Shown here piece by piece: positions 4,215-6,414 of a stretch of DNA of 64,000 nucleotides. Under the pieces are notes generated by a model that made no database searches, was not told the DNA's origin, and saw only the letters and a program-made list of their open reading frames with translations. Each line of letters starts with the position of its first letter. Position 1 is the first letter of the stretch. Source of the stretch: Pedobacter planticolens (GTDB lineage Bacteria > Bacteroidota > Bacteroidia > Sphingobacteriales > Sphingobacteriaceae); the NCBI RefSeq assembly GCF_014172375.1, contig NZ_WNXD01000002.1:806001-870000 (forward strand), in the 5' to 3' direction. A program made the translations under genes and the position numbers.

Positions 4215-4874
4215 CTAAGGCACGAAAATCACGTAAATTAAATAGCAGATAATTAGCCCAATAATCCCCGTAATAAATCCCGCAACGCGTCTCTTTTTAA
4301 TAAAACACAATAAGATTAATCCGCTGAGCGAAACCAAAATTAAAAACACTGCAGAAATATCTATAATCCATCCCCAACCCGAACCAGAATCTCTTCCTTT
4401 GTGCAAATCGTTCATTATGGCAACAATGCCCATTTTAATTTCCGAAAGCTCATACTTTCCTGTTTCACGATCAATAAATGCATCTGCAGAATAAGCAGGT
4501 CCTTTTAGCGAAACGCTTACTTCAGAATCATCAATTCTAATTTCGCTCACATAGCCTTTAACATTGTTGGTTTTACGCAAAAACTCTACAATTTCTAACT
4601 TAGCAATTTTAGTTGTGTCGGGGTTATTTACCCATTTCACATTCAAAACCCCTTTATGCTTTATTTCAACTTGTTTATCTCCGCCAAACCACGTTGGGTG
4701 ATTTAACGTTAAACCCGTTACCGAAAAGAAAAGCACAATGGCAAAGCTCACCATTGAAAGATAAATATGGAGCCAACGTGATAGTTTAGCTACTTCTTTT
4801 TTCGGATTACTTGCTTTTGTAGCTACTTTCTTCTTCGAAGTAAGCGGTGCAGGATTATTTTTTATAGAAGTCAA
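4215..4874 (-). CDS. PepSY-associated transmembrane protein
   Basis: A 219-residue membrane protein. A lysine-rich cytoplasmic N-terminus is followed by a membrane helix with the motif SRWLHIYLSM near residues 31-40, an extracytoplasmic PepSY-like domain (about 65-150), and two C-terminal helices (about 168-190 and 196-217). HDLHKGRDSGSGW-type residues before the second helix (here NDLHKGRDSG) are typical of PepSY_TM proteins, which often carry electrons across the membrane. The start is TTG at 4872-4874; the gene overlaps the 3-prime end of the ApbE-DUF2271 gene by 20 nt on the same strand, implying translational coupling. Its partner is a predicted flavin transferase, so a joint redox role is likely (inference). 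Confidence 0.8.
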   Translation of the reverse strand: MTSIKNNPAPLTSKKKVATKASNPKKEVAKLSRWLHIYLSMVSFAIVLFFSVTGLTLNHPTWFGGDKQVEIKHKGVLNVKWVNNPDTTKIAKLEIVEFLRKTNNVKGYVSEIRIDDSEVSVSLKGPAYSADAFIDRETGKYELSEIKMGIVAIMNDLHKGRDSGSGWGWIIDISAVFLILVSLSGLILLCFIKKRRVAGFITGIIGLIICYLIYVIFVP

Positions 4875-6375
4875 AAGTTACGTTTGAGATTTCAACATTT
4901 CCCGCCGAAGTTGCTTTTCTAGCAGATTTTTTTAATTCCATTGGCTGGCGGATAATTTCATCCGTACCATGTTCTTTTGAAGTTTCGATAACGATGGTAT
5001 ATTTTCCTTGAGCAACAAAGTTTCCTTTATCATCTTTTCCATCCCATTTTATGGTGTATTTTCCTGGAGAACGAGTTGCGCCTGTTACTGAAGCATAATT
5101 GGCTTTATCAGCTTTAAAGCTATCGCCATTAATACGATACCAGTTTTTAAGATCCGGAACCCATTTGGTTTTATTGTACCACAAAGCCAAATTACGAACT
5201 GCTTCTTTCTTTTCATTTTCTACCCAAATTGCTGCAAACGGGCGGTGATTATTTCCTGTAATTACATTCATTTCGAAAGTTATTGCCAATTCAAATTTAG
5301 CATCCCAAGGTTTTTCTGCACTAGATAAAGTTGGAGCAGCAGTTTCTGTTTTAGTTTCTTCAACTTTTGGGTCAACTAATGCATTCCAACCTTTACTTTC
5401 TACTCTTTTTCCGTCTTTAGTGATAATTAAATATTCCGCATCTTTTACTGTTGCAGCTAATGCTTTACTTTCTTCTAACGATAATACATTAAACGCCGTT
5501 GCTAATGCGCCAGCATCTGTAGCGTTTGGAGCCACAATAGTTGCGCTAATTACGCCTTCAACAGGTTTTCCTGTACGTGGATCTACAATATGCGAATACC
5601 AATGTTTACCAATTTGTTCACCTCTGCGGTAGTTTCCGCTAGTTGCAACCGCTTTATTACTTACCAATAAATGAGCTAAAGGCGCATCATTTTCAGCATT
5701 TGCCAAAGGATTAGTAACGTTTACTGCATCAGCAACATCTCCTTTAATCACTAAATCTCCGCCAATATTTACTACAACAGCGTTGATTTTTGATGATGTT
5801 AGCGCTGCATCACAAGCTAAATTAATAATATAGCTTTTTGCAAAAGTATTCATCACCAATGGTGTATTATTTAAACGAGTAGCGGTTAAGGTTGCCGCGT
5901 CTAATTTGTAATGTGCTTGTTTCATCACCATTACTGCTGCGTTAATTTCTGCTGTTGATGGAATTACTTGATTTTTCGCAGCGTCTTTCCACAACTTTAC
6001 CGCAACAGCTGATGAAGCATCTAGCGCTCCGTTTGTACGAGTTTTCCATTGTTCAAACAGGTTAAGCATATCAAATAACTCTTTCGAAACTTTAACTGGT
6101 TTGTTCAAACCCTGTTTCATCCATTGGCTAAACTCACTTTTTTCATCGTAAGCACTAAATACGGCTGATAATCTGTTTATCTCAGCCAATGCTGCAACTT
6201 CTGCTTTCTCTGCCTCATTTTCAGAAACGCTAGTAAATTTGAATTCTAATGATGTTCCCAATACATTTTCATAATTGGAAACGTATAATCTCTGATTACT
6301 TTTCTTCGGCGCTTCGGTAGTTGGTTGCGTACCAATTAGTAAAGCAGCTGTTAATAATGAGGCAAATATTTTCAT
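4855..6375 (-). CDS. ApbE-type FAD:protein FMN transferase fused to DUF2271
   Basis: A 506-residue exported protein with a signal peptide (about 1-20). Residues about 30-330 match ApbE: the VVVNIGGDL segment, the SHIVDPRTGKP segment and the TDAGALATAF metal-site segment are all present. The usual GGIAKGYAVD stretch is degenerate (NTFAKSYIINL), though its lysine remains. Residues about 350-500 match DUF2271. Within DUF2271, SVTGATRSPG (TGAT at residues 431-434) resembles the FMN-acceptor motif (D)xx(S/T)GAT(S/T), but the leading Asp is Ala. ApbE moves FMN from FAD to a threonine of a target protein outside the cytoplasm. Here enzyme and candidate target are in one chain, followed by an overlapping PepSY membrane gene. 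Confidence 0.85.
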   Translation of the reverse strand: MKIFASLLTAALLIGTQPTTEAPKKSNQRLYVSNYENVLGTSLEFKFTSVSENEAEKAEVAALAEINRLSAVFSAYDEKSEFSQWMKQGLNKPVKVSKELFDMLNLFEQWKTRTNGALDASSAVAVKLWKDAAKNQVIPSTAEINAAVMVMKQAHYKLDAATLTATRLNNTPLVMNTFAKSYIINLACDAALTSSKINAVVVNIGGDLVIKGDVADAVNVTNPLANAENDAPLAHLLVSNKAVATSGNYRRGEQIGKHWYSHIVDPRTGKPVEGVISATIVAPNATDAGALATAFNVLSLEESKALAATVKDAEYLIITKDGKRVESKGWNALVDPKVEETKTETAAPTLSSAEKPWDAKFELAITFEMNVITGNNHRPFAAIWVENEKKEAVRNLALWYNKTKWVPDLKNWYRINGDSFKADKANYASVTGATRSPGKYTIKWDGKDDKGNFVAQGKYTIVIETSKEHGTDEIIRQPMELKKSARKATSAGNVEISNVTFDFYKK

Positions 6376-6406: not shown

Positions 6407-6414
6407 CAAATGTA
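6407..6414 (-). promoter_or_regulatory. -7 promoter element of the ApbE-DUF2271/PepSY operon
   Basis: Minus-strand TACATTTG is an exact TAnnTTTG match. The start codon of the ApbE-DUF2271 gene lies 31 nt downstream, giving an expected leader of just under 30 nt. No clear TTG is seen at the -33 distance. Confidence 0.5.

Follow-up and report, generated by a model that had tools for sequence, protein, structure and literature searches.

The closest described counterparts of the locus analyzed here are systems in which the flavin transferase ApbE acts on a DUF2271 protein. According to the accessible parts of the principal report on these, the DUF2271 protein of A. ursilacus is flavinylated by its ApbE, a modification abolished by a Thr-to-Ala substitution; the acceptor motif of ApbE-associated DUF2271 proteins is [S/T]GA[S/T], without an Asp; DUF2271 was included in 2833 of 3220 PepSY-like clusters; and in some genomes a single gene encodes both ApbE and DUF2271 (Meheust 2021; PMC8238504). 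A 2024 mSystems paper regards DUF2271 proteins as flavinylated and predicts that PepSY-like ones bind haem (PMC11334425). The window (i.e., the whole 64,000-nucleotide stretch of Pedobacter planticolens DNA that was analyzed) contains a real and conserved variant of this described kind. A sequence-only reading of it had singled out a self-modifying fusion as the point of interest; both the fusion and the substrate role of DUF2271 were already in print (PMC8238504), but the fusion has an unusual active site that adds to that interest. What is new here is that the sampled Bacteroidota fusions constitute one clade, that the candidate acceptor Thr434 is retained in 84/84 distinct fusions, and that these have a Gly at the position of the triad/metal Asp of ApbE.

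A two-gene locus coding for an ApbE-DUF2271 fusion and a PepSY protein

The features of the locus, with residue numbers referring to the fusion protein, are:

4855..6375, (-) strand: ApbE-DUF2271 fusion ORF, 506 aa, ATG start
5434..6258, (-) strand: ApbE domain (PF02424), residues 40-314, Pfam E 6.4e-53
5836..5838, (-) strand: Lys180 of FAKSY, metal-site-2 equivalent (Ftp_Tp K165 / Ftp_Ec E169), from our alignment and PMC4767422
5590..5592, (-) strand: His262, equivalent in our alignment of V. cholerae ApbE His257, the proposed general base
5509..5517, (-) strand: Asp287-Ala288-Gly289, with Gly289 aligned to the triad/metal Asp (Vc D285, Ec D280)
5308..5385, (-) strand: inter-domain linker, residues 331-356
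4885..5289, (-) strand: DUF2271 domain (PF10029), residues 363-497, a beta sandwich, Pfam E 2.3e-36
5074..5085, (-) strand: TGAT motif, residues 431-434, with the candidate FMN acceptor Thr434
4215..4874, (-) strand: PepSY_TM_like_2 membrane protein, 219 aa, TTG start (PF16357 E 1.6e-50; PF03929 E 6.9e-12)

The domain matches bear out the fusion that had been proposed at 4855-6375 and place the enzyme and its candidate acceptor on one polypeptide, as had been claimed; SVTGATRSPG occupies residues 429-438, its second Thr falling exactly on residue 434. By eye, the N-terminus resembles a Sec-type signal sequence, of which residues 2-14 are helical in an AlphaFold model of the fusion (pLDDT 88.2, pTM 0.83). 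This pTM hints that the two domains may be packed against each other in a definite manner; within the linker, whose length ranges from 15 to 27 residues across 84 fusions, pLDDT is lowest at residues 341-346. Structural comparison with VIA-align matched the ApbE domain to the T. pallidum Ftp 4xdt (Z 34.2, rmsd 2.7 over 311 residues) and gave the DUF2271 domain only weak matches, to Ig/C2-like domains (Z ≤7.8), with weak FlgD-like matches to the same part in a PDB sequence search. Comparison with the nearest named relative among the matches listed, that of P. boryungensis (93% identity), revealed purifying selection on both domains (dN/dS 0.05 and 0.03) and a relaxed linker (0.43), and six further pairs showed the same order wherever synonymous sites were unsaturated. 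About 32 bases 5′ of the fusion ATG, at window positions 6407-6414 on the (-) strand, lies TACATTTG, resembling the Bacteroidota -7 promoter box.

The membrane gene that had been noted at the 3′ end of the fusion is indeed a PepSY gene by its PF16357 and PF03929 matches and shares 20 bases with the end of the fusion ORF, and a PepSY gene lies directly downstream in 78 of the 79 complete fusion loci from our contig scan. Taken with the conservation of Thr434 in 84/84 fusions, this pairing indicates that the fusion is not a chance observation. The PepSY proteins have three hydrophobic segments and conserved histidines (His36 and His59 in 79/79; His158 in 78/78 ungapped rows); by analogy with the family, they are candidate haem binders. 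The PepSY model (pLDDT 84.6, pTM 0.64) gave no Foldseek match at E ≤0.001 and a weak resemblance to FoxB (7abw; Z 5.0, rmsd 7.1 over 145 residues), and a PDB sequence search with the protein returned no convincing match.

A run of A residues in the 20-base overlap raised the idea that a programmed frameshift might link PepSY to the fusion. Measured from the first start of each frame, however, the gap between the two genes at 78 loci takes values between -98 and +24 bases (an overlap in 59) and the start codons differ, as between ordinary neighboring genes; hence we rejected it. Iron or siderophore genes were likewise rejected as regular neighbors: non-PepSY neighbor clusters occur in at most 22/79 loci and seem to reflect synteny inside genera. 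The ~4 kb around the fusion loci showed no third partner that is conserved. One assembly has a second fusion copy (L118:332-1855) in addition to that of L101, with no PepSY found in the following 1.7 kb.

Distribution and origin of the fusion

DUF2271 was found in 43 of 151 genomes of the family, at 45 places, at 14 of which it is fused to ApbE. A sample of 395 genomes across the phylum had 34 places above the Pfam cut-off, five in frames of at least 500 residues, and an overlapping sample of 395 genomes of the class had 31, six in such frames. The scan of genome contigs yielded 163 confirmed relatives, and among the best 80 of these 163, used for the analysis, 79 are labeled as Bacteroidota taxa and one as Williamsia, which the tree groups with the fusions from Bacteroidota; the fusion frame is complete in 79 of these best 80 and cut by a contig end in the remaining one. 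In a 39-row maximum-likelihood tree, drawn midpoint-rooted, the 22 sampled fusions form one clade (support 99/97), which joins two unfused Deinococcus ApbEs (branch support 100/100) apart from the ApbE partners of stand-alone DUF2271 proteins. On the Deinococcus plasmids, apbE, DUF2271 and PepSY are three adjacent genes in the same order as at the fusion locus, and a single tblastn alignment spans apbE and DUF2271 in strain D7000. The simplest reading is that apbE and DUF2271 merged once, and that the Asp disappeared on the branch leading to the fusions.

The candidate acceptor threonine is invariant while its motif varies

The acceptor positions, counted in 84 distinct fusions, lay outside the scan patterns. 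In the alignment, Thr434, Arg435, Gly438 and Tyr440 are invariant in 84/84, and Thr434 and Arg435 are each also present in all 19 fusions that the DUF2271 model detected. TGAT itself, whose invariance among the fusions had been put forward as a check, is less constant: position 432 is Ser in 58/84 and Gly in 26/84, Ala occurs at 431 in two, and Ser or Thr at 433 in three. Strict TGAT, as in the window protein, is found in only 25/84, strict [S/T]GA[S/T] in 26/84, and the relaxed [S/T][G/S]AT in 79/84. The motif also persists without a fused ApbE, but with Ser at the acceptor position in stand-alone DUF2271 proteins of the same family (T[G/S]AS in 31/31); unfused plasmid DUF2271 proteins have the acceptor Thr-Arg in 5/5, the Acidovorax one reading TSPTR, and the Deinococcus one also has Ser for the motif Gly. 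Since the unfused plasmid proteins keep Thr-Arg and the consensus of the trypanosomatid flavinylation site, D(g/s)x(s/t)(s/g)AS, permits Ser in place of the motif Gly (PMC8065229), the sequences give no clear sign of decay in this replacement. The further caution that the motif Asp is an Ala in the window protein is correct but matters little, because the published DUF2271 motif does not include the Asp, and in a K. pneumoniae substrate the effects of the Asp-to-Ala change were no more than minor (reviewed in PMC12052999). Residues 431-438 are modeled by AlphaFold as a loop between strands rather than as a sandwich strand (pLDDT ~67 for 431-440).

The active site of the fused ApbE lacks a conserved aspartate

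The conserved catalytic residues of V. cholerae ApbE are Ser241, His257 and Asp285 (PMC12052999), and the ligands in E. coli Ftp are Asp280 and Thr284 for metal 1 and Glu169 for metal 2, while in Ftp_Tp the metal-ligating residues were the sole ones found critical for transferase activity (PMC4767422), as stated in the accessible parts of these sources. Equivalences between species are those of our own alignment, which used 6nxi (V. cholerae ApbE; chain 6nxj carries H257G) as the reference. By these, His262 and Ser246 (Vc H257 and S241 of the proposed catalytic triad), Thr293 of metal site 1, Lys180 of metal site 2, and Asp207 are each present in 84/84 fusions and in 19/19 found through DUF2271. 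In contrast, the window protein has Gly289 where the triad/metal Asp would stand, and so do all 19 fusions found through DUF2271, the fair sample for this site; the 84/84 of the wider set is biased, since one of the two contig-scan patterns contained [DE]AGALAT, matched by 77 of the 79 scan fusions. The Asp is present in all eight reference ApbEs: two from Deinococcus, three proteobacterial DUF2271 partners, one from Leisingera, and the two that the window's genome has besides the fusion.

The GGIAKGYAVD segment, which had been called degenerate, does depart from the canonical form (MNTFAKSYIIN in the window protein), but the departure is a clade signature, [N/H][S/T]FxKS[Y/F], occurring in 19/19 DUF2271-found fusions with the Lys retained. 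The missing triad/metal Asp, which the sequence-only reading had overlooked, is the more serious departure.

Three candidates for compensating or auxiliary residues were examined. The acid at position 287 is not always present as a relocated metal ligand that might compensate for Gly289: the 19 DUF2271-found fusions have Asp in 12, Glu in five and Thr in two, and the 83/84 acidic in the wider set is biased by a scan pattern that required D or E. Among the strongly conserved acids of DUF2271, Glu362 alone is largely special to the fusions (19/19 DUF2271-found fusions; G, T, A, G, D in unfused proteins), and it is suggestive at most as a putative stand-in for the missing Asp. Lys402 of DUF2271 (78/84 fusions) was rejected as a counterpart of the critical Lys207 of NqrC, the column being Asp/Asn in 31/31 stand-alone proteins.

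As a separate observation, the ApbEs near stand-alone DUF2271 genes (L034-L077) carry Asn instead of the triad/metal Asp in 28/28 found, and Glu at the Lys180 position in 10/28. By sequence, this Asn represents a second, separate departure at the site linked to DUF2271.

Probable self-flavinylation and its alternatives

Two of the 19 fusion genomes, G071 and G022 (each 99% complete), have no ApbE besides the fusion, and the other 17 have at least one more. A search of G071 and G022 for the substrate classes FMN_bind, DUF3570, NqrB/RnfD and DUF2271 found none of the first three in either, making the fused DUF2271 the only substrate present of the classes searched. In these genomes the fused ApbE therefore probably modifies its own fused DUF2271, and we consider self-flavinylation likely for the fusion in general.

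The window's own genome codes for three ApbEs in all. One of the two additional copies lies within 1 kb of a DUF3570 match, and the other lacks the Thr of ALAT. The former belongs to a second flavinylation unit of this genome (G000:C1:924933-927139), in which a DUF3570 gene adjoins a canonical ApbE and a nearby 236-aa ORF looks by eye like a VIT-type transporter. The copy without the ALAT Thr, a separate ApbE at L002:1399-2406 (G000:C2:1344157-1344990), has degenerate sites, reading TADGYDN for TADALAT and with Gln as its counterpart of Lys180.

Drawing on the domains, the conserved residues, the gene pairing, the single clade among the fusions sampled, and the sole-ApbE genomes, we favor, with fair confidence, an explanation in which the merged apbE/DUF2271 gene and its PepSY neighbor specify a two-gene extracytosolic flavin electron-transfer unit whose ApbE flavinylates Thr434. 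On this view, apbE and DUF2271, as a rule two genes, would have merged within a two-gene unit of the PepSY type. The ApbE domain of the exported fusion would split FAD and place FMN on Thr434 in the DUF2271 loop, the acceptor lying on the same kind of polypeptide and being reached either within one chain over the linker of 15-27 residues or between two chains. The three-helix PepSY protein, likely haem-bearing, would pass electrons to or from this FMN, which would hand them on to a periplasmic acceptor, perhaps ferric iron. A narrower proposal, which we hold to be doubtful, is that the ApbE of this clade is a single-use module for its own tail, with FMN transfer confined to the fused DUF2271: the tethered acceptor could have allowed the metal site to be relaxed or rebuilt (Asp to Gly; GGxAKG to [N/H][S/T]FxKS), the docked domain perhaps making the active site complete, and the ApbE domain, once spent, would stay in the electron carrier permanently.

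What counts against the favored explanation is the Gly289 of 19/19 fusions, two of which also have Thr at 287, along with the presence, in 17/19 genomes, of other ApbEs that might act in trans. The same Gly, and the two additional ApbEs of the window's genome, are what one would expect if the fused ApbE had lost transferase activity with the Asp-to-Gly change and persisted as a docking or stabilizing module, Thr434 being flavinylated in trans by another ApbE; yet G071 and G022 lack a second ApbE to do so, those of the window's genome are the one beside the DUF3570 gene and the one without the ALAT Thr, and the remaining named active-site residues are fixed with a low dN/dS, all of which render this reading unlikely. 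The altered metal site could alternatively point to an ApbE domain that holds FAD non-covalently as a redox cofactor, giving a two-site flavin carrier with Thr434 modified or not. One class of ApbE binds FAD unhydrolyzed when the acceptor is absent (PMC4767422, accessible part), but the invariance of the acceptor Thr, and the lack of any precedent in the literature we found for ApbE as an electron carrier, make this quite improbable. We give still less credence to a purely structural role for Thr434-Arg435 in the fusion clade, with no flavin attached: the looseness of the motif, with strict TGAT in under a third of the fusions, Ala at 431 and Ser/Thr at 433, would accord with it, but the acceptor position has a Ser in all 31 stand-alone relatives, one DUF2271 protein is flavinylated at the same site (PMC8238504, accessible part), and the fused ApbE domain remains under selection.

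The Asp-to-Gly change makes self-modification in the fusion clade worth testing, and, given G071 and G022, the fusion offers a minimal system, a single polypeptide, for testing how ApbE works. Should flavinylation persist in the Gly289 clade, the mechanism now described for ApbE would have to be revised; should it not, one would have to account for a pseudoenzyme that is conserved together with the conserved acceptor to which it is fused. A domain pair that flavinylates itself, if real, would also be a compact flavin tag.

Comparison with known systems

The single-gene ApbE-DUF2271 of Meheust 2021 (RUL87804.1) has the same two domains, a PepSY partner and an [S/T]GA[S/T] acceptor; the pair tested there, from A. 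ursilacus, was a separate ApbE and DUF2271, unlike the present fusion, and neither the active-site Asp change nor the history of the fusion was found in the accessible part of that paper (PMC8238504). In a literature search confined to open-licence PMC papers, we recognized no fuller account of ApbE-DUF2271 fusions, and we found no published covalent FMN on a protein of the fusion clade.

The Deinococcus plasmid apbE-DUF2271-PepSY set (L158, L159) shows the same order of functions, with an SSAT acceptor, and its ApbE is the nearest unfused one among those compared; it differs in being encoded by separate genes and in an ApbE that keeps the Asp (TADALAT). Its DUF2271 protein (L158:3963-4520, L159:3970-4527) has by eye a twin-arginine-like start, which suggests possible export via Tat rather than Sec. 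Proteobacterial PepSY-DUF2271-DUF4198-ApbE clusters (L161, L162) have the same functional set as the window locus, but as four separate genes in another order and with the extra DUF4198; that of L161 sits between TonB siderophore receptor genes. A further known fusion likewise joins a flavin transferase to its proposed target protein, but it is glycosomal, its acceptor is a Ser right at the N-terminus (Ser9 in Leptomonas), and its electron-transfer domains are unrelated.
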